64,000 nucleotides of DNA from contig NZ_CP042345.1 of assembly GCF_007954425.1 (NCBI RefSeq), positions 1,178,001 through 1,242,000 on the forward strand, in the 5' to 3' direction. Positions 29,212 to 45,217 of this stretch are shown here, piece after piece. A program made the translations under genes and the position numbers. Position 1 is the stretch's first letter, and every line of letters begins with the position of its first letter. The notes under the pieces were generated by a model. That model saw only the letters and a program-made list of their open reading frames with translations. It was not told the DNA's origin and ran no database searches. The stretch comes from Novosphingobium ginsenosidimutans (lineage in GTDB: Bacteria > Pseudomonadota > Alphaproteobacteria > Sphingomonadales > Sphingomonadaceae).

Positions 29212-30056
29212 TGGGTCATCAGCCTGCGCAATTCGCTATCCTGGCTCCGCGGCGCAGGAACGCCAAAGAACTTTTCGAACGCAGCGGCCGCTTGGCCGAT
29301 CAGCATGGCAAGACCGTCAATCGTCGCCAGTCCGTGCGCGCGGGCCTGCTGGAGCAGAGCGGTGTCGGCCGGCGCGGTGACAATATCATAGACCGTGGCA
29401 TTGGCGAGGAAGCCGCCCCACGGCAGGTCAAGCGGCGGTTGCCCGGTCATGCCGAGCGGGGTGGCATTGACAATCAGGCTGAGCACTTCGGGATCTGCTG
29501 GGCGCAGCGGCCCTGGTTTAAGCTCGGCCAGATCGATCAGGAACTCCGGATCCTCGCCCAGGTAGCGCCCGAATTCGGCCTTGGCCTTGGCGGGATTGCG
29601 GCTGATCGACCAGATCATGAATTCGGTATGGAACAGCGCGTCGATGATCGCCCGCGCCGCGCCGCCGGTGCCGATGACATAGGCAAAGCGATAATCCTCG
29701 TCCCCGAGCAGCGGCAGGACCGGCTCGAGAAACCCGGGTGCGTCCGTGTTGTGGCCGGTCAGGCTGCCGTCGGCCTCGCGCACTACGGTGTTGACCGCGC
29801 CGATCCGCGCCGCCTCGTCATCGATCCGGTCAAGCAGCGGCATGACCGCCTGCTTGTGCGGCATGGTTACATTGCAGCCGCGCCAGAGCGCGTCGCCGCG
29901 CCGCTCGGCCAGGTAGGCCGCCAGACCATCGGTGGTGACAAGGCAGCGGTGATACTCGGCCTCGATCCCAAGTTTGGCGAGCCAGAAGCCGTGAATCACC
30001 GGGCTTTTCGATTGGGCTATCGGATCGCCGATCACGTCAGCGTAGGGGAGCCTCAT
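29208..30056 (-). CDS. aroE: Shikimate dehydrogenase
   Basis: NADPH-dependent reduction of 3-dehydroshikimate in aromatic amino acid synthesis. In the 282-residue protein, the shikimate-binding part has [15 protein letters not shown] and the catalytic Lys in [31 protein letters not shown] and the Rossmann loop [16 protein letters not shown] follow. The C-terminal [24 protein letters not shown] closes the domain. It overlaps maf upstream and coaE downstream by four bases each. Confidence 0.95.
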
Positions 30057-30643
30057 GCGGTCAGCACCCCGCGCGCGCGCAGTGCACCCAGTACCGGCAG
30101 CAGCGGCATGCCCAGCACGGTGAAGTGGCTGCCCTCGATCGCCTCAAACAGCTGCACCCCCAAAGCCTCGATCCGGAACACGCCGACGCAGCCGCTGACC
30201 GCCGGCCATTCGGCCGCAAGGTAGCTTTCGATAAAGGCGTCGGAGAGATGCCGCACCCAGAGCCGCGCCACGTCGGCATGGTCCCAATAGGTATGTCCGC
30301 CGCGCGCCAGGGCTGCTGCGCTGTGCAGTTCCATCACCTTGCCTGAGAAGAAGGCGAGATGCTGCGCCGCCTCATCACGGCTGCGCGGCTTGTCGAAACG
30401 GCGGCCTTCGACCGTTACCAGTGAATCGCTCCCGAGGACCCAGGCTTCGGGTTCGCTGCGCGCCACCGCCAGAGCCTTGGCCCGGGCAAGCGCCAGCGCA
30501 ACATCCCCGGGCGCCGCGCCAGCCATTTCCGCCTCGATCGCGCGCTCATCGACATGAGCCGGGCACGCTGTAAAGGGCACGCCGGCATCGGTCAGCATTG
30601 CCTGACGTGAGGCGCTTTGCGACGCGAGCACCAGCGTGGTCAC
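30053..30643 (-). CDS. maf: Maf-like nucleoside triphosphate pyrophosphatase
   Basis: House-cleaning hydrolase that removes non-canonical or excess nucleoside triphosphates; members act on dTTP/UTP or modified bases. The 196 residues start with [32 protein letters not shown], a version of the family LASxSPRR loop in which Ser-Ala replaces Ser-Pro. [34 protein letters not shown] carries the metal-binding acidic residues. It overlaps both ppsR and aroE by four bases. The conserved ppsR-maf-aroE-coaE-dnaQ order matches that left of the Caulobacter origin. Confidence 0.93.
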
Positions 30644-31464
30644 CGCTGCTCCTCGCCGGCGTGGCGTTCGTTGTAGATGTTGATCACGGCAGCGGCGGTT
30701 TCCTCGATCGAGCGGCGGGTGACATCGATCACCGGCCAGCCATTATCGGCAAACATCCGCCGGGCGTACTGCACTTCCTTGGTCACCCGGTCCTGGTCGA
30801 CATAGGCGGTTTCGGGCGCCTGGTTGAGCGATAGCAGCCGGTTGCGCCGGACCTGGACCAGCCGTTCGGGCGCGGTGGTCAGCCCGACGACCAGAGGGTG
30901 CTTGAGGCCAAACAGCGCCGGGGGCGGCGGGCTTTCGACCACGATCGGGATATTGGCGACCTTGTAGCCCCGGTTGGCCAGATAGATCGAGGTCGGCGTC
31001 TTGGAACTGCGCGAGACGCCGGCCAGGACAATATCGGCCTGCTCCCAATCTTCCCAGGCCACACCATCGTCATGGGCAATGGTATAGTGGATCGCATCGA
31101 CGCGGGCGAAATAGGCCTCGTCCATTGCATGCTGCCGGCCCGGTCGGGCATGGGGGTGCTGGCCCAGCGCAGACTCGAGCGCCTCTACGGCACGATCAAG
31201 CACGGGGACCACCGGCAGGCCCAGCGCCCGGCAGCGTTCCTCCAGCTTGGCGCGGATCTCGGCATTGGCGAGGGTGAAAAAGACCAGTCCCGGATTGGTG
31301 GCAATATCGCCCATGATCCGGTCAAGATGCTGGAGCGAGCGGACCATCGGCCAGAAATGGCGGCTGACCTCGGCCCCTTCGAACTGGGCCAGCGCCGCTT
31401 TGGCAATCATCTCCAGCGTTTCACCGGTGGAATCAGACAGCAGATGAAGGTGCAGACGCGGCAT
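30640..31464 (-). CDS. ppsR: PPDK/PEPS regulatory kinase-phosphorylase (DUF299)
   Basis: Bifunctional serine/threonine kinase and phosphorylase that switches pyruvate phosphate dikinase or PEP synthase on and off with ADP and phosphate. The 274-residue protein contains the nucleotide loop [27 protein letters not shown] and starts with [26 protein letters not shown], both hallmarks. The orthologous gene borders the chromosome origin in Caulobacter. Here it reads away from the 318-bp origin-like gap towards the left. Confidence 0.93.
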
Positions 31465-31782
31465 CGGGTTCCTGGGCTACCCCTGTGGACAGAGCCCCGC
31501 ATAAACCACGGCACAAGCCTTGGGACAAGTTCGGGGACAGTTTCGCTGCCCAGTACCGGCCCGGCCACACAGACCTTGTGGACAAGGGGAAAACGATTCC
31601 CACAGGCTGGGGACAGTGGGGACAACCTCTGCTTGACGCGCCGTTAACCGGATTCGCACCCGCGCTAGCCCCTATTCAGCTAGGGACAATTCAGGCAAGG
31701 GATCGCAATCCCCGCTTTCCACAGGGCCAACAACTCCATAATCCTTTTAAGAATCTAATTTGAATTTGATTGGACTCACGCG
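31465..31782. other. Candidate chromosomal replication origin (oriC) between ppsR and hemE
   Basis: The 318-bp gap between divergent ppsR and hemE. On the minus strand it holds DnaA-box-like TTGTCCACA (31577-31585, one mismatch to TTATCCACA), CTGTCCACA (31484-31492) and TTGTCCCCA (31617-31625). On the plus strand it holds CTTTCCACA (31715-31723). Several weaker GGGACA-type copies lie between them. There are four GANTC sites (31595, 31651, 31751, 31773), a TTAACC element (31644) and an AT-rich stretch 31731-31771 beside hemE that could unwind. Gene polarity switches here. Hem, rho and par genes to the right and ppsR/maf/aroE to the left match the known Caulobacter origin neighbourhood. Confidence 0.72.
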
Positions 31783-32808
31783 ATGCCCGGTTTGCTGCTC
31801 CGTACCCTGTCTGGCGAAAACATGGCGGAGCGGCCTGTCTGGCTGATGCGCCAGGCCGGGCGGTATCTGCCGGAATATCGCGCGCTCCGGGCCAGCAAGG
31901 GCGGGTTCCTGAACCTGGTCTATGACAGCGAGGCTGCGGCCGAAATCACGCTGCAGCCGATCCGCCGCTTCGGCTTCGATGGCGCGATCCTGTTTTCCGA
32001 CATCCTGATCGTGCCCTATGCGATGGGCCAGGATCTGGAGTTCCTGGTGGGTGAGGGCCCACACATGTCGCCGAGGCTGCTCGATGCCGCGCTGACCAGT
32101 CTGACCGCGGTGCCCGGGCGGCTCAGCCCGATTTACGAGACCGTCCGGCTGGTCAAGGCCGCCCTTCCCGGGGACAAGACCATGCTGGGCTTTGCCGGCA
32201 GCCCCTGGACCATTGCGACCTACATGGTGGCAGGTGAGGGCAGCCGCGACCAGCACGATACCCGCGCGCTCGCCTACCGCGATCCTGCCGGCTTCCAGGC
32301 GATCATCGATGCGATTGTCGGCGTGACCGTGGAATACCTGATCGGCCAGATCCAGGCCGGGGCCGAGGCGGTGCAGCTGTTCGACAGCTGGGCGGGCAGT
32401 CTGGCCCCAAGCGAGTTCGAGCGCTGGGTGATTGCGCCCAATGCGGCGATCGTCCGGCAGCTCAAGGCCAAGATTCCCAACGTGCCGATCATCGGCTTTC
32501 CAAAGGGCGCGGGTGAAAAGCTGGGGGCCTATGCCCGCGAGACGGGGGTCGATGCGATCGGGGTCGATGAAACGATCGATCCGGTCTGGGCCGCGCGCGA
32601 ACTACCGCCGGGCATGCCGGTTCAGGGCAACCTCGATCCCCTGCTGCTGCTGGCCGGCGGGGAGGAACTCGATCGCCAGGCGCTGCGCGTGCTCGAAGCC
32701 TTTGCCGATCGCCCGCATGTCTTCAACCTGGGCCACGGCATTGGCCAGACCACCCCGATCGAACATGTCGAGCAATTGCTGGCGCTGGTACGGAGCTGGA
32801 AGCGCTAG
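31783..32808 (+). CDS. hemE: Uroporphyrinogen decarboxylase
   Basis: Decarboxylates uroporphyrinogen III to coproporphyrinogen III in heme synthesis. The 341-residue barrel has the N-terminal RPVWLMRQAGRYLPEYRALRA with the substrate-binding arginine, FDGAILFSDILIVPYAMGQ with the catalytic Asp, and GFAGSPWTIATYMVAGEGS. VQLFDSWAGSLAP, GFPKGAG and VFNLGHGIGQTTPIEHV follow. It starts immediately right of the origin-like gap, and hemJ follows 13 bases downstream. Confidence 0.96.
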   Translation: MPGLLLRTLSGENMAERPVWLMRQAGRYLPEYRALRASKGGFLNLVYDSEAAAEITLQPIRRFGFDGAILFSDILIVPYAMGQDLEFLVGEGPHMSPRLLDAALTSLTAVPGRLSPIYETVRLVKAALPGDKTMLGFAGSPWTIATYMVAGEGSRDQHDTRALAYRDPAGFQAIIDAIVGVTVEYLIGQIQAGAEAVQLFDSWAGSLAPSEFERWVIAPNAAIVRQLKAKIPNVPIIGFPKGAGEKLGAYARETGVDAIGVDETIDPVWAARELPPGMPVQGNLDPLLLLAGGEELDRQALRVLEAFADRPHVFNLGHGIGQTTPIEHVEQLLALVRSWKR

Positions 32809-32820
32809 TATGATCCAGCC

Positions 32821-33267
32821 ATGCTTTCGTGGGTGCTCAGCATGACTTATCTCTGGCTCAAGGCGGGCCATGTCACCTTCGTGATCTTCTGGATGGCGGG
32901 GCTGTTCATGCTGCCGCGCTTCTTCGTCTACCATCAGGAGGCGGAGCCCGGTTCGGCCGAGGAAGCCCGCTGGATCGATCGCGAACGCCGCTTGCTGCGG
33001 ATCATCCTGTGGCCGGCGATGGGTGTTACCTGGGCACTTGGTCTGGCCCTGGCCTTCTCGATCGGGGCGTTCACCCAGCCGTGGTTCCATGCCAAGCTGG
33101 GCCTGGTACTGATTCTCAGCGCCTACAACGTCTGGATGGCTGGCTATGCCGCGGATCTCGCTCAGGGCAGACGGCGGCTGGAGGGCAAGCGCCTGCGGAT
33201 CCTCAACGAGGTGCCGGGCATTGCCACCGTGCTCATTGCCATCATGGTGATCGTGAAGCCCTTCTGA
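32821..33267 (+). CDS. hemJ: HemJ, protoporphyrinogen IX oxidase
   Basis: A 148-residue membrane protein with four helices of the HemJ (CopD-related) family, which oxidises protoporphyrinogen IX. LKAGHVTFVIFWMAGLFMLPRFFVYHQEA has the conserved His of helix 1, and the later DRERRLLRIILWPAM and RLRILNEVPGIATVLIAIMVIVKPF are typical. It is adjacent to hemE, which supplies the same pathway. This pairing next to the origin is common in alphaproteobacteria. Confidence 0.9.
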   Translation: MLSWVLSMTYLWLKAGHVTFVIFWMAGLFMLPRFFVYHQEAEPGSAEEARWIDRERRLLRIILWPAMGVTWALGLALAFSIGAFTQPWFHAKLGLVLILSAYNVWMAGYAADLAQGRRRLEGKRLRILNEVPGIATVLIAIMVIVKPF

Positions 33268-33277
33268 AGTTGCGGCG

Positions 33278-33306
33278 TTGACCCTTCGCGTCTGAAGGCC
33301 TATCTC
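33278..33306 (+). promoter_or_regulatory. Promoter of rho
   Basis: TTGACC (33278-33283), a 17-bp spacer and TATCTC (33301-33306) match a housekeeping sigma factor promoter in this GC-rich background. It predicts a leader of about 115 bases before the rho ATG, which would leave room for the autogenous Rho-dependent control known for rho genes. Confidence 0.5.
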
Positions 33307-33427
33307 TCGACCGTCCGGCATGGGCGCGCGCCATTGACGACGCGCCACGATCCGCTTTCTCCAAGCCCATCGATCGACCGGCCATCACAGCCTGCGCCTA
33401 TGCGCAACACACGGAAATACAACGATA

Positions 33428-34684
33428 ATGCATCTTAAAGAACTCAAGAAGAAAACCCCCGCCGAGCTGGTCGAGATGGCCGAAGAGCTTGAGGTTGAAG
33501 CCGCATCGACGATGCGCCGCCAGGACCTGATGTTCGCGATCCTCAAGGAATTGGCCGAGGATGGCGAGGAAATCATCGGCCAGGGCACGATCGAAGTACT
33601 GGCCGATGGCTTCGGCTTCCTGCGCAGCCCGGAAGCGAACTATCTGGCTGGTCCCGACGATATCTATGTCTCGCCCAACCAGGTCCGCAAATGGGGCCTG
33701 CGCACCGGCGATACGGTTGAAGGCGAGGTCCGCGCCCCCAAGGATGGCGAGCGCTACTTCGCGATCACCAAGCTGATCAGCATCAACTTCGACGAGCCCG
33801 AAGTGGTCCGTCACCGCGTCAATTTCGACAACCTGACCCCGCTCTACCCGGATGAGCGGCTCAATCTCGATACGCTTGACCCGACGGTCAAGGACAAGTC
33901 GGCCCGCGTGATCGACATCATCAGCCCGCAGGGCAAGGGCCAGCGCGCCCTGATCGTGGCGCCGCCGCGCACCGGCAAGACCGTGTTGCTGCAGAATATT
34001 GCCAAGGCGATCACCGACAATCATCCGGAAGTGTTCCTGCTGGTCCTGCTGGTCGATGAACGGCCCGAGGAAGTGACCGACATGCAGCGTTCGGTGAAGG
34101 GTGAGGTGATCTCTTCAACCTTTGACGAGCCGGCAACGCGCCACGTCCAGGTCGCCGAAATGGTGATCGAAAAGGCCAAGCGCTTGGTCGAACACAAGCG
34201 CGACGTGGTGATCCTGTTGGATTCGATCACGCGCCTTGGCCGTGCTTACAACACCGTCGTGCCCAGCTCGGGCAAGGTGCTGACCGGCGGTGTCGATGCC
34301 AACGCCCTGCAGCGTCCCAAGCGCTTCTTCGGCGCGGCGCGCAACATCGAGGAAGGCGGCTCGCTCTCGATCATCGCCACGGCGCTGATCGATACCGGCA
34401 GCCGCATGGACGAGGTGATCTTCGAAGAGTTCAAGGGCACCGGTAACTCGGAAATCGTGCTCGACCGCAAGGTCGCGGACAAGCGCATCTTCCCGGCGCT
34501 CGATGTCGGCAAGTCCGGCACCCGCAAGGAAGAGCTGCTGGTCGGCAAGGACAAGCTCAGCAAGATGTGGGTCCTGCGCCGCATCCTGATGCAGATGGGC
34601 ACGATCGACGCGATGGAATTCCTCCTCGACAAGATGAAGGATTCGAAGACCAACGAAGACTTCTTCGCGACGATGAACCAGTAA
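33428..34684 (+). CDS. rho: Transcription termination factor Rho
   Basis: Hexameric RNA-dependent ATPase that ends transcription. The 418-residue protein has [21 protein letters not shown] at the start, then the cold-shock-like RNA-binding domain ([33 protein letters not shown]). Walker A is [19 protein letters not shown], followed by [15 protein letters not shown] and [15 protein letters not shown]. The secondary RNA-binding Q- and R-loops are intact. Rho near the origin and followed by the mnmE-parB cluster is a standard alphaproteobacterial layout. Confidence 0.97.
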
Positions 34685-39210: not shown

Positions 39211-39226
39211 TGTTCCACGTGAAACA
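39211..39226. other. parS site 1 (TGTTCCACGTGAAACA)
   Basis: A 16-bp near-palindrome that matches the universal parS sequence recognised by ParB (TGTTNCACGTGAAACA). It lies in the 61-bp gap between mnmE and mnmG, about 7.4 kb from the candidate origin. Confidence 0.93.
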
Positions 39227-41124: not shown

Positions 41125-41762
41125 TTGCCACCGAACAGGAAGCGCGGGCCTGGCTTGCCGCCTTGCCGGAATGGGATGCTGTAGCCGCAGATCGGATCGA
41201 GCTGCTGATCGCCTTGCTCATTGAGGAGAACGCGCGGCAGAATCTGGTTGCTGCAGCGAGCCTACCTCTGGTCTGGCACCGCCATATTGCGGATTCGGCT
41301 CAATTGCTGCCGCATGTTCCACGTGAAACATCCTCGCCCTGGCTCGATCTCGGGACTGGGGCGGGCTTTCCCGGCCTGGTGATTGCAGCACTGCGGCCGG
41401 ATTGCGAAGTGGTGATGGTCGAATCGCGGGCGCGGCGAATCGAATGGCTTGAACGCGCGCGACTCGCATTGGGGCTGGAGCGTGCACGGATAGAGGGCGC
41501 CCGGCTTGAACAAGTCGAAACGCGGGCATTTCGCGTCATTTCGGCACGGGCCTTTGCTCCACTCGTCCGATTGCTCGACCTTTCCGCACGCTTTTCCACA
41601 AAGGACACGCTCTACCTGTTGCCGAAGGGTCGTTCGGCGCAGCAGGAACTGTCAGAACTGGAGGGGTGGAATCACCTGTTTCACGTGGAACAGTCGCTGA
41701 CCGATCCCGAGGCCGGGGTCATTATCGGCCAGTTGCTCGGCAAAAAGGGGAAAAAACCGTGA
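41121..41762 (+). CDS. rsmG: 16S rRNA (guanine527-N7)-methyltransferase
   Basis: Methylates G527 of 16S rRNA. In the 213-residue protein the SAM site is [21 protein letters not shown] (about residues 74-94), followed by [16 protein letters not shown] and [29 protein letters not shown] completes the fold. Two parS sites lie inside the gene, so those codons are fixed by ParB binding as well as by protein. It ends GKKGKKP, and parA overlaps its stop. Confidence 0.94.
41315..41330. other. parS site 2 (TGTTCCACGTGAAACA), within rsmG
   Basis: Identical in all 16 bases to parS site 1, but located inside the rsmG reading frame, where it encodes HVPRET. Exact identity in coding sequence argues for selection as a ParB site. 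Confidence 0.93.
41677..41692. other. parS site 3 (TGTTTCACGTGGAACA), within rsmG
   Basis: Reverse complement of the site 1 sequence, inside the 3' part of rsmG and about 65 bases before parA. The opposite orientation is the only difference. Confidence 0.93.
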
Positions 41763-42535
41763 TCCGCATGGCGATCGCCAACCAGAAGGGCGGGGTGGGC
41801 AAGACCACCACGGCGATCAACTTGGCGACCGCGCTGGCGGCGACGGGGTGGAAAGTCCTGCTGATTGATCTCGATCCCCAAGGCAATGCCTCAACCGGAA
41901 TCGGCATCGGCACCAACGATCGCGAACGCTCGACCTATGACCTGCTGGTCGATCAGATGCCGCTCAGCGAGTGTGTTTCCTCAACAAGAATCCCAGGGCT
42001 CGACATCGTCCCGGCCACGGTGGACCTCTCAGGCGCCGAGGTTGAGCTGGTTTCAGTCGAAAATCGCACGGAACGTCTCGCCAAGGCATTGTCGGCCGAT
42101 ACCGGGCACGAAATCTGCCTGATCGATTGCCCGCCGTCGCTGGGCTTGTTGACGCTCAACGCGCTTTGCGCCGCCGATACGCTGCTGGTCCCGCTGCAAT
42201 GCGAGTTTTTCGCGCTCGAAGGGCTTAGCCAGCTGCTGCAGACAGTGGAGCGCGTGCAACAGCGCTTCAATCCCGATCTCGGGATCATCGGTGTGGCGCT
42301 CACCATGTTTGACCGCCGCAACCGCTTGACGGATCAGGTCGCGGACGACGTCCGATCATGCCTGGGTCCGCTGGTGTTCGAATCGGTGATTCCGCGCAAT
42401 GTGCGGCTTTCGGAGGCGCCCAGCCACGGACTGCCGGCCCTCGTCTATGATCATTCCTGCGCCGGCAGCCGCGCCTATATCGCGCTTGCCCGTGAACTGA
42501 TTGGCCGCCTGCCCGAATCGAGGAAAGCCGCATGA
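41759..42535 (+). CDS. parA: Chromosome partitioning ATPase ParA
   Basis: Walker-type ATPase that moves ParB-parS complexes for chromosome segregation. The 258-residue protein has the deviant Walker A ANQKGGVGKTTTAINLATALA with the signature lysine, then LLIDLDPQGNASTGIG and ICLIDCPPSLGLLTLNAL. The C-terminal part contains SVIPRNVRLSEAPSHGLPAL. The GTG at 41759 overlaps the rsmG stop (GTGA); ATG 41768 (MAIANQKGG) is an alternative. parB overlaps its end by four bases. Confidence 0.95.
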   Translation: MIRMAIANQKGGVGKTTTAINLATALAATGWKVLLIDLDPQGNASTGIGIGTNDRERSTYDLLVDQMPLSECVSSTRIPGLDIVPATVDLSGAEVELVSVENRTERLAKALSADTGHEICLIDCPPSLGLLTLNALCAADTLLVPLQCEFFALEGLSQLLQTVERVQQRFNPDLGIIGVALTMFDRRNRLTDQVADDVRSCLGPLVFESVIPRNVRLSEAPSHGLPALVYDHSCAGSRAYIALARELIGRLPESRKAA

Positions 42536-43491
42536 GCGACGATAACACCACTGGCACCGCGCCGCAGGCGCCCGCCAAGAAGAAGCCTTTGGCTCTTGGC
42601 CGCGGGCTGGGTGCCTTGCTCGGGGAAACGCGGCGTGAGGAACCCTTGGTCAACCCGGCCACGCTCGCGAGCGCTACTGGCGGAGCCGCACCAAAGGATG
42701 GCCTGGCGCTGCTGCCGGTTGCCGCCATCGTTCCCCACCCCGGCCAGCCGCGGCGCCATTTTGACGAGGCCGCTTTGGCTGAACTTGCCGCATCGATCGC
42801 GGCGCGCGGGGTGATCCAACCGGTGATCGTGACCCCGCATGGTGCGGGAAAGTGGCGCCTGGTTGCGGGTGAGCGCCGCTGGCGGGCTGCCCAGCGTGCG
42901 CAACTCCATGAAATTCCAGCAATTGTCCGCGATCTGGATGAGCGCGAGGTTACCGCGCTGGCGCTGATCGAAAACCTCCAGCGCGAGGATCTCAACCCGA
43001 TCGAAGAAGCGCGCGCATACCACAGTCTGGCCGAGGACGAGGGGCTGACCCAGGCGGAGATCGCCAAACTGGTCGACAAGAGCCGCAGCCACGTTGCCAA
43101 CCTCCAGCGCCTGCTGGGTCTGCCCGAAAGCGTGATCGCGCTGGTTGAGCTGGGCAGGCTGTCGATGGGTCATGCCCGGGCGCTGATCGGGGTCGAAAAT
43201 GCCGCTGAGCTCGCCGCGCAGGCTGTTGCCAGACAACTGTCCGTCCGCGAAGTCGAGCGGCTGGTCCGGCGCAAGGATGCGCCCGCCACCCAGCGCCGCG
43301 CGCGGAGTGAACGCGACAATGCCAATTCGGCCGACATTGCCGCCGTCCAGGCGCACCTCGAAGAGTTCCTTGGTTTATCGGTCCGAATCAATGCCGATGC
43401 CGATCCGCGTTCGGGGGCGGTAACCATCCGCTACCGGACGCTCGACCAGCTCGACCTGATCTGCCAGCGCCTGACCGGCGGGGGAATCTAA
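42532..43491 (+). CDS. parB: Chromosome partitioning protein ParB
   Basis: parS-binding CTP-dependent clamp. In the 319-residue protein, LGRGLGALLGE near residue 20 is the ParA-stimulating N-terminal motif. The CTP-binding part includes QPRRHFDEAALAELAASIAARGVIQPVIV and AGERRWRAAQ. EVTALALIENLQREDLNPIEEARAY leads into the parS-reading HTH LTQAEIAKLVDKSRSHVANLQRLLGLPESV. The C-terminal dimerisation domain ends LGLSVRINADADPRSGAVTIRYRTLDQLD. It completes the mnmE-mnmG-rsmG-parA-parB cluster. Confidence 0.95.
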   Translation: MSDDNTTGTAPQAPAKKKPLALGRGLGALLGETRREEPLVNPATLASATGGAAPKDGLALLPVAAIVPHPGQPRRHFDEAALAELAASIAARGVIQPVIVTPHGAGKWRLVAGERRWRAAQRAQLHEIPAIVRDLDEREVTALALIENLQREDLNPIEEARAYHSLAEDEGLTQAEIAKLVDKSRSHVANLQRLLGLPESVIALVELGRLSMGHARALIGVENAAELAAQAVARQLSVREVERLVRRKDAPATQRRARSERDNANSADIAAVQAHLEEFLGLSVRINADADPRSGAVTIRYRTLDQLDLICQRLTGGGI

Positions 43492-43558: not shown

Positions 43559-43680
43559 AACCAAAAGTAATCCCACAACTCCGTGAAACTACAAGCATCG
43601 CTGCGAATGGGGGCCAACCGTCCATTCGGGCGGCGCATTCGCGCTGCAGGTTAGACTGCTTGGAAGGGATCAGAGTTATC

Positions 43681-44184
43681 ATGCGCAATACGTTCCGTAT
43701 CGCTCTCGTCGGCGCCGCTCTCAGCGCTGTTTCGTTTGCTTCGGCCGCTTCGGCCGCCACTTCGGCCACTGCCAATGCTTCGGCCGAAGTCCTCAGCACG
43801 CTGACGCTCACTGCCAATTCGGCGCTGAACTTCGGCCAGATCGCTGCCAACACCGGTGGCACCGTTACCGTCAACGCTGATTCGACCACCGCTTCGAGCG
43901 GCACCCTGGTTTCGACCGGCACCCGCGCTCCGGCCGGGTTCACCGTCACCGGCACGCCGAACGCCAATGTCGTTCTGACCCTGCCGGCTTCGGCGACGCT
44001 GACCCGTTCGGGCGGCACCGAAACGATGGCGATCGGCGGCTTCAACAGCAACCCGGCTGGCGCTTTCCAGCTCGGCGGCACGGGTTCGGCGAATTTCGCT
44101 GTTGGCGGCACGCTGACCGTTGCTTCGGGCCAGGTGGCTGGTGTCTACAACGGCACCTTTAGCGTCTCGGTCGAATACCAGTAA
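43681..44184 (+). CDS. DUF4402 secreted protein, probable pilus-like subunit
   Basis: A 167-residue exported protein. The signal peptide is MRNTFRIALVGAALSAVSFASAASAA. The mature part is Gly/Ala/Thr/Ser-rich beta structure with only small residues and no cysteines, matching the DUF4402 domain (LTLTANSALNFGQIAAN near the start, YNGTFSVSVEYQ at the end). Proteins of this domain occur beside PapD-like chaperones and usher-like proteins, so it is likely the polymerising subunit of a surface fibre. GGAAGGG lies 13 bases upstream. A terminator follows, before the chaperone gene. Confidence 0.85.
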   Translation: MRNTFRIALVGAALSAVSFASAASAATSATANASAEVLSTLTLTANSALNFGQIAANTGGTVTVNADSTTASSGTLVSTGTRAPAGFTVTGTPNANVVLTLPASATLTRSGGTETMAIGGFNSNPAGAFQLGGTGSANFAVGGTLTVASGQVAGVYNGTFSVSVEYQ

Positions 44185-44229
44185 GCGAAAGCCAACCCGC
44201 CTGCCTGTTGGCAGTCGTGGGGAGACCAT

Positions 44230-44266
44230 GGGCCGCATCCGCCACGGCGGGTGCGGTCCTTTGGTT
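44230..44266 (+). terminator. Terminator or attenuator between subunit and chaperone genes
   Basis: GGGCCGCATCCGCC (44230-44243) pairs with GGCGGGTGCGGTCC (44246-44259) with two wobbles; the innermost pair opens to a four-base loop, leaving a 13-bp stem. A T-rich tail TTTGGTTT follows. It lies 45 bases past the subunit stop and could make subunit mRNA more abundant than chaperone-usher mRNA. Confidence 0.75.
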
Positions 44267-44386
44267 TGCAACAGACCTGTTATGCTTAGCGAGAAATTAA
44301 CCCTGTTTGCCTAGACCTAAGCAGATGCCGCAGGTCCCTTTGCAGGACCTCGGCAAGGATTTGCATCTGCCAGGGGTCCGCAGCCA

Positions 44387-45217
44387 ATGCCGTTTTCTGC
44401 TTCTGTCCGCCGTTTCGCCATTGCCCTCAGTGCCTTGCCAATCCTGCTTGCTCCGGCCCCGGCGGTCGCGCAGGGGGATTTGCTGGTCGCGCCAACCCGC
44501 GTGATCATCAATGGCGCCGGCAATGCGGAAGTGGTGCTGAGCAATATCGGCAACCAGGCCGCCACCTATCGCATCGGCGTCGAGTTGCGCCGAATGGAGC
44601 CCGATGGCGACTTTACCGATGTGACCGAAGCGGAAGCCAACGCGACTGAAAAGGCGGCGTTGGAAATGCTGCGTTATGCGCCCAAGCGGATCACGCTTTT
44701 GCCTGGCCAGCCCCAGGCGATTCGCCTGAGCGCGCGGCCTGCGCCTGAACTGCCTGATGGCGAATACCGCGTCCACATGAGCTTCCGCGCCGTGCCGCCG
44801 GCACTTTCGCCTGAAGTCGCGCAAGAGCAGGCGGCGGCAGGCCAGCTCGCGATCCGGCTCACACCGGTCTACGGCATCACTATCCCCGTCTTCGTCCGCA
44901 AGGGCCGGCTCGAGGCCGCTGCAACGATCGCCAACCCAAGGCTTGGCGGTAATGACACCTCCAAGTGGCTCGAGCTTGATATGCGGCGTACTGGCCAGCG
45001 TTCCGTTTATGGCGAGATCCTGGGCAAGCGCGGCGGCGAACAGGTGTTTCAGATCAAGGGTGTCGCGATCTACCCCGAGGTCCAGGGCCGCACGATCAAG
45101 GTGCCGCTGACCGCCGAGCAGGCCGCCAAGCTGACCGGGCCGATTCGCATTGAATACCGCGAACTTCCGGAAAACGGCGGACAACTGATCGCCGAAGTCA
45201 CCTCGACCGTTCGCTAG
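44387..45217 (+). CDS. PapD-like periplasmic chaperone
   Basis: A 276-residue exported chaperone. It has a signal peptide (MPFSASVRRFAIALSALPILLAPAPAVAQ), then an immunoglobulin-like fold. GDLLVAPTRVIINGAGNAEVVLSNIGNQAATYRI is the first strand pair, and PDGEYRVHMSFRAVP and a final GPIRIEYRELPENGGQLIAEV follow. ALEMLRYAPKRITLLPGQPQAIRLSAR carries the family-style motif that donates strand residues. It is expected to escort the DUF4402 subunit. The usher-like gene starts 32 bases downstream. Confidence 0.82.
   Translation: MPFSASVRRFAIALSALPILLAPAPAVAQGDLLVAPTRVIINGAGNAEVVLSNIGNQAATYRIGVELRRMEPDGDFTDVTEAEANATEKAALEMLRYAPKRITLLPGQPQAIRLSARPAPELPDGEYRVHMSFRAVPPALSPEVAQEQAAAGQLAIRLTPVYGITIPVFVRKGRLEAAATIANPRLGGNDTSKWLELDMRRTGQRSVYGEILGKRGGEQVFQIKGVAIYPEVQGRTIKVPLTAEQAAKLTGPIRIEYRELPENGGQLIAEVTSTVR

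Follow-up and report, generated by a model that had tools for sequence, protein, structure and literature searches.

The chromosomal origin of Caulobacter crescentus, Cori, is bounded by hemE and the COG1806 gene CC0001. It is 404 bp long and contains five DnaA boxes and a 40-bp AT-rich region, with an AT content of 43.6% versus 32.8% for the genome (PMC1914354), and several GANTC sites are found there too (PMC3973325). In another alphaproteobacterium, Hyphomonas, marker-frequency data peak near hemE; in that organism the origin could not be clearly located from skew, dnaA or DnaA sites (PMC6650430). Among sphingomonads, a hemE-near origin is predicted for most Sphingomonadaceae in DoriC (PMC4741004), and Ori-Finder puts oriC near hemE in Sphingopyxis granuli TFA, Novosphingobium PP1Y and N. 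aromaticivorans, the PP1Y prediction also lying near a dnaA gene (PMC4059872). Conserved DnaA boxes and an unwinding element (DUE) were noted for the predicted Sphingopyxis oriC (PMC4741004, PMC4059872). Given these published predictions, a hemE-linked origin is already known in kind.

We analyzed a 64,000-nucleotide stretch of Novosphingobium ginsenosidimutans DNA (the window), which comprises bases 1,178,001-1,242,000 of a one-contig genome of 3,118,872 bp. Judged from its sequence, the gap between ppsR and hemE in this window is very probably where DnaA-dependent replication of the chromosome starts. Sequence features expected of a hemE-type origin were found here: a skew minimum with dif opposite, a cluster of DnaA boxes, an AT-rich element and parABS within about 10 kb.

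The ppsR-hemE gap and its relatives

The boundary genes are the same as those of Cori. The gap, its neighboring genes and the parS-pattern matches are as follows (window positions).

30640 to 31464, minus strand: ppsR/DUF299 (COG1806) homologue, boundary gene (NF003742, PF03618)
31465 to 31782: candidate oriC, intergenic, 318 bp, 56.9% GC versus about 65% around
31783 to 32808, plus strand: hemE, boundary gene (TIGR01464, 384 bits, cut-off 303)
33428 to 34684, plus strand: rho (TIGR00767, 692 bits, cut-off 509)
39211 to 39226: parS-pattern match between mnmE and mnmG
41315 to 41330: parS-pattern match within the rsmG frame
41677 to 41692: parS-pattern match within the rsmG frame
41759 to 42535, plus strand: parA (ParA-family matches, best TIGR03453, 105 bits)
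42532 to 43491, plus strand: parB (TIGR00180, 182 bits, cut-off 58)

The gap was found once in the genome (1,209,465-1,209,782) and has an AT content of 43.1% versus about 35% around it. The first-pass annotation had described a 318-bp gap at a strand switch and the gene order hemE, rho, mnmE, parAB. Both descriptions held upon profile search of the window genes: ppsR and hemE are divergent, and hemE is followed rightward by a hemJ-like gene (TIGR00701, 130.6 bits, slightly under the cut-off of 138), rho, mnmE, mnmG, rsmG, parA and parB. The ppsR homologue scored 332 bits with the subfamily model NF003742 (cut-off 225) and gave an E value of 3.4e-95 with PF03618, whereas its score with the PpsR equivalog model NF049928 was 163.5, under the cut-off of 350. 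None of the best 25 ParA-family model matches listed for parA reached its cut-off. Note that the frames at 43660-45217, 3' of parB, resemble by eye a secreted pilus-subunit and chaperone pair, a candidate assignment.

Relatives were compared at three depths. By HemE, the closest records bearing a name were Novosphingobium MAGs, with 94-95% identity. The 110 Novosphingobium-group loci consist of sets of 30 and 80, which possibly share genomes, and include the window's own copy. A divergent ppsR-hemE gap was present in 109 of the 110, the locus left out having its hemE start 306 bp from a contig edge. With the window itself there were 110 group gaps, of which 97 were distinct. The family set of 40 gaps from 39 genera, one of them the window's own, showed the divergent gap in 39 of its 40 stretches. 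In the exception the 1.6 kb upstream of hemE lack ppsR, and 599 bp were taken instead; those 599 bp are 37% GC and carry seven TNTCCACA-like words. At the level of the order, 20 of 24 genomes provided stretches and 18 of these had the divergent pair, the others being one in which the contig ends and one with no ppsR within the stretch. As the former is a sole contig that ends 500 bp upstream of hemE, its assembly seems to have been cut open at or close to the origin. In a further genome (G108:C1:447992-448989) the hemE match falls into two pieces, located in stretches that overlap, which looks like a break or frameshift in that assembly. As the compared sequences are related, the counts given below are of sequences and not of independent events.

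Skew, dif and parS

Cumulative GC skew, the check proposed by the first-pass annotation, was computed from sampled sequence. For the window together with 40 stretches of 10 kb, the minimum fell at the window and not at dnaA (770,357-771,736, 0.44 Mb from the gap), and the maximum at 2.755 Mb. A two-change-point fit, for which 20 stretches were added mostly near the window (in total 60 stretches and 60 kb from the window), placed the origin at 1.146 Mb with an R2 of 0.43. The 5-95% range from 40 bootstraps, 1.044-1.308 Mb, is coarse but includes the gap (1.2095 Mb) and excludes dnaA (0.770 Mb). The skew is weak (means of +0.010 and -0.012), and around the window the 10-kb stretches include both positive and negative values. 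On a 20-kb grid R2 was 0.33-0.35 at 1.20-1.22 Mb, with the best value, 0.40, at 1.04 Mb and 0.26-0.29 near dnaA. Owing to the mixed signs and the values near dnaA, the skew backs the region but cannot single out the gap, and we rank dif, parS, the conserved box array and the AT-rich stretch as better evidence.

The dif pattern was taken from N. aromaticivorans dif (PMC2731167), with up to two mismatches allowed. It gave a single match in the genome, which was exact (2,755,039-2,755,058) and lies 14 kb away from the point diametrically opposite the gap (2,769,060). Measured from the gap to dif the replichores are 1.545 and 1.573 Mb, whereas an origin at dnaA would give about 1.98 and 1.13 Mb. 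The parS pattern has three matches in the genome, all in the window and 7-10 kb from the gap, and parAB lies 10-12 kb from it. Several lines of evidence place both the origin and the terminus of this chromosome. Two forks would run from the gap toward dif at 2.755 Mb, and ParABS, 7-12 kb off, would segregate the new copies.

DnaA boxes and the AT-rich stretch

Nonamers with at most two mismatches to TTATCCACA were taken as DnaA-box-like. Four such nonamers are present in the gap: B1, B3 and B6 on the minus strand and B8 on the plus strand. These are given below together with weaker words and the adjoining AT-rich stretch; the fractions are of the 97 distinct group gaps having the motif at that place.

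31484 to 31492, minus strand: DnaA-box-like B1 (CTGTCCACA); TGTGGA in 94/97
31520 to 31528, minus strand: weak box-like repeat B2 (TTGTCCCAA); GACAA in 77/97
31577 to 31585, minus strand: B3, the best DnaA box (TTGTCCACA), one mismatch to TTATCCACA; TGTGGA.A in 50/97
31597 to 31605, plus strand: weak box-like B4 (TTCCCACAG); CCACAG in 74/97
31608 to 31616, minus strand: weak box-like B5 (CTGTCCCCA); GGGGA.A in 64/97
31617 to 31625, minus strand: box B6 (TTGTCCCCA), two mismatches to TTATCCACA; GGGA.AA in 45/97
31681 to 31689, minus strand: weak box-like B7 (TTGTCCCTA); GG.ACAA in 53/97
31715 to 31723, plus strand: hemE-proximal DnaA box B8 (CTTTCCACA), toward the AT-rich stretch; T.TCCACA in 92/97
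31724 to 31728, plus strand: GC-rich GGGCC between B8 and the AT-rich stretch; GGCC in 56/97
31731 to 31770: candidate DUE, AT-rich and with the lowest stability of any 40 bp in the 64-kb window

The four nonamers, already pointed out in the first-pass annotation, exceed chance: dinucleotide shuffles of the gap gave a mean of 0.67, with four reached in 6 of 2000 shuffles, and only 5 of 8510 overlapping 318-bp windows of the same genome reached four (464 kb of background, from the 40 sampled stretches and the rest of the window). The excess is general among relatives, with means per gap of 5.09 versus 0.65 in shuffles for the 97 group gaps and 4.70 versus 0.77 for the 40 family gaps. Perfect TTNTCCACA boxes are not clustered at the gap; of the 31 in the genome, one lies there. 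Judged from the sampled genome, 0.06 copies of the core GGGACA and 0.07 of TGTGGA would be expected in the gap. It has five of the former (both strands) and three of the latter; these excesses indicate that weaker box-like words exist besides the four nonamers. The GGGACA words, at 31520-31689, come back at conserved places, and they may be a weak class of DnaA site comparable to the W-boxes of Caulobacter.

Duplex stability was computed from nearest-neighbor energies. The least stable 40 bp of the 64 kb start at 31731, in agreement with the AT-rich stretch next to hemE that had been noticed from the sequence. In a by-eye comparison with the DnaA-trio description excerpted from PMC8235120, the GGGCC spacer was present and a clear trio run was not seen.

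On the basis of established DnaA biology, we take the box array together with the AT-rich stretch to be the probable initiation machine. At this locus DnaA would load on one good and several weak boxes (B1-B8), and B8, which faces the AT-rich stretch, would anchor the DnaA oligomer that opens the DUE beside hemE.

Support for reading the gap as an origin comes from dif opposite, the three parS matches, the conserved boxes and the AT-rich stretch. A different reading is that the gap is simply the divergent ppsR/hemE promoter region, in which DnaA binds the boxes to regulate transcription, with the origin elsewhere nearby. Two divergent genes do need expression from the gap, a TTGAC is kept in 88 of the 97 group gaps, and a minus-strand TTGTC lies 17 bp (counted by hand) before the TTTATG of a conserved element near ppsR (see below), the spacing of a -35/-10 pair. 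However, the box-like words are ordered, the AT-rich stretch lies at the box that faces it and the distances to hemE are constant, dif is opposite and parS nearby, and a scan of 31300-31900 found no consensus sigma-70 promoter or terminator. Moreover, in the control hemJ-rho gap of the 57 loci from which both gaps could be extracted the best nonamer was shared by 33/57 versus 53/57 in the origin gap, and nonamers common to half of the loci numbered 8 versus 19, although the control gap is shorter (median 199 versus 324 bp). A purely promoter role thus seems highly improbable to us, and an origin at dnaA (0.770 Mb), its location in many bacteria, more improbable still. A change point near dnaA does account for 0.26-0.29 of the skew variance, and the PP1Y origin is predicted near hemE and also near a dnaA gene (PMC4059872), whereas here dnaA is 0.44 Mb off. 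Against it, dnaA falls outside the bootstrap range, dif would be very asymmetric and all three parS matches lie near hemE. The preferred reading is the DnaA-dependent origin within the gap, which agrees with the origin function that the first-pass annotation had inferred from the sequence.

The conserved 14-bp element and the central GANTC

The 137 gaps (97 group, 40 family) reveal constrained positions in sphingomonad origins, among which two of the strongest are features other than DnaA boxes.

31500 to 31513, plus strand: CATAAACCACGGCA, the conserved element (consensus CATAAACCACGGGA); 87/97 group gaps have ATAAACCAC here
31633 to 31637, plus strand: TTGAC, -35-like; 88/97
31651 to 31656, plus strand: central GANTC, extended as GATTCG; GANTC within 3 columns in 97/97
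31751 to 31755: GANTC in the DUE; 65/97
31773 to 31777: GANTC adjoining hemE; 31/97

The element, CATAAACCACGG(G/C)A, keeps a constant spacing to a DnaA-like box, and hemE is about 270 bp away. Its anchor pattern was detected in 87/97 group gaps and 26/40 family gaps and not in the other 10 and 14, respectively, and ATAAACCAC and AAACCACG were absent from all 20 same-order gaps. The pattern also occurs in Croceicoccus and Altererythrobacter records (L131, L139 and L141). Box B1 (TGTGGA) starts 16 or 15 bp before the element in 84 of the 87 group gaps that have it; in the 26 family gaps B1 was 16 bp before the element in 18 and was not found in 8. Another box-like word, ACAAG, is found at +25 of the element in 46/87 group gaps (none found in 35) and 24/26 family gaps. 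Exact ATAAACCACGG has a single occurrence in the genome, the one in the gap. In 298 family genomes the exact 13-mer of the element gave about 123 matches versus about 35 for a backwards control and was present in 117 genomes; among 145 family relatives with a hemE match, 55 have it on the same strand as hemE, 266-298 bp ahead of the gene. Where the place of hemE was known, 10 of 65 copies lay away from the origin. The distance from the element to ppsR is variable (3-95 bp). An in-frame extension of ppsR was considered as an explanation of the element and rejected, because spacings of 35, 36 and 37 bp to the ppsR start are all common.

The excerpts of the sphingomonad oriC papers contain no mention of the CATAAACCACGGGA element or the central GANTC, which may stand unlabelled in supplementary alignments. 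Within the searchable text of the open PMC literature neither the element nor a conserved GANTC unit was found described in sphingomonad origins, and the papers containing the element words were, among the matches listed, unrelated by title.

GANTC sites start at 31595, 31651, 31751 and 31773. That four is above chance, as the first-pass annotation had claimed, was confirmed by dinucleotide shuffles of the gap (mean 0.85, four reached in 17 of 2000) and by the sampled genome (mean 0.41 per 318 bp, four reached in 15 of 8510 windows). The mean number per gap was 4.86 versus 1.37 in shuffles for the 97 group gaps and 4.65 versus 1.41 for the 40 family gaps.

The annotation had also listed a TTAACC element. 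It is present at 31644-31649, but as only 1 of the 97 distinct group gaps has it in that position it looks like a chance occurrence, and CtrA control as a conserved feature was rejected. The gap has no exact TTAA-N7-TTAA CtrA site and one with a single mismatch (31633-31647), of which TTAACC supplies the 3' half. Cori has five CtrA sites plus an IHF site, whereas no conserved CtrA half site was found in the compared gaps and the three IHF-like words of this gap are weak, each having two mismatches to the consensus. An RNA element was likewise rejected, since 30000-34000 gave no Rfam hit at the gathering score.

A GANTC starting 120-145 bp before hemE was found in 97/97 group, 34/40 family and 1/20 same-order gaps. 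It is directional: in the group the central site reads GAKTCG toward hemE in 91/97 gaps and CGAMTC in none, and in the 34 family gaps the counts are 25 and 2. In comparison, 763 GANTC sites in 600 kb of the same genome comprise 131 GAKTCG and 148 CGAMTC, and the non-central sites of the 97 gaps are GAKTCG in 20 of 361. The central GANTC of the window lies 18 bp after the start of TTGAC. TTGAC is found 13 or 14 bp before GANTC in 88/97 group gaps and 28/40 family gaps but not in the other 9 and 12 or in any of the 20 order gaps, and TTGAC-N13/14-GANTC gives 5 pairs in 664 kb of the same genome, counting both strands.

This arrangement resembles the GcrA/CcrM promoters of Caulobacter and Brevundimonas in having TTGAC followed by GAKTCG in the place of the -35/-10 spacer, and the genome encodes GcrA (PF07750, E 1.4e-38) as well as a candidate CcrM assigned from its RAMA domain alone (PF18755, E 1.2e-18). 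The unit also comes near to the extended motif of GcrA promoters, YGAKTCG (PMC7987155). Unlike those promoters, the central unit has no conserved -10 after its GANTC in the 97 gaps, has the leading pyrimidine in only 24/97 and stands within an origin among box-like words. With two likenesses but the -10 missing, we do not class the unit as a GcrA/CcrM promoter and say only that, on sequence grounds, it may work like a GcrA/CcrM switch. TTGAC-N13/14-GAKTCG may be a GcrA-read promoter that faces the DUE and hemE, and control of initiation would probably be exerted through CcrM methylation of GANTC, chiefly of the invariant central site. Since GANTC near the Caulobacter origin is hemimethylated in about 80% of cells (PMC3973325), a switch at this place would have the longest timer.

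Both conserved features could instead serve transcription. The central GANTC may be a GcrA/CcrM promoter of hemE that merely happens to be located in the origin, as suggested by a directional GAKTCG 18-19 bp past the TTGAC start and by the Caulobacter promoters with GANTC between -35 and -10, which fire at a set time (PMC4287350). This is possible, but on balance we doubt it: the conserved -10 and, in most gaps, the leading pyrimidine are missing, the AT-rich stretch separates the site from hemE, 150 bp away, and Brevundimonas GcrA targets show no preference for the extended motif (PMC7987155). The element could similarly be the -10 region of a ppsR promoter with no role in initiation. It sits at the ppsR end at a distance that varies as a leader does, and its minus-strand reading, TGGTTTATG, resembles an extended -10, with the hand-counted TTGTC 17 bp upstream. 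A -10 requires its key A, however, and TTTATG lacks it; the promoter scan found none. In addition, TCCCG upstream is conserved as well, which a promoter at the element would not need, and the constant distances of the element are those to hemE (266-298 bp, 55 genomes) and B1 (15-16 bp, 84/87), so that we consider the -10 explanation rather unlikely.

Returning to initiation, a more speculative proposal is that in the origins of the Novosphingobium/Croceicoccus/Altererythrobacter group a methylation-read GcrA/CcrM unit amid the DnaA boxes times the opening of the adjacent DUE, in place of the CtrA control seen in Caulobacter, and that the 14-bp element, tied to DnaA-like boxes, binds an unknown protein that bounds the initiation complex at its left edge; we put this forward tentatively and would not expect it to hold in full. 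CtrA is dispensable in Sphingomonas melonis (PMC8116508). If the central GANTC were indeed a switch read by methylation, CcrM and GcrA would control initiation directly in the order that includes this species.
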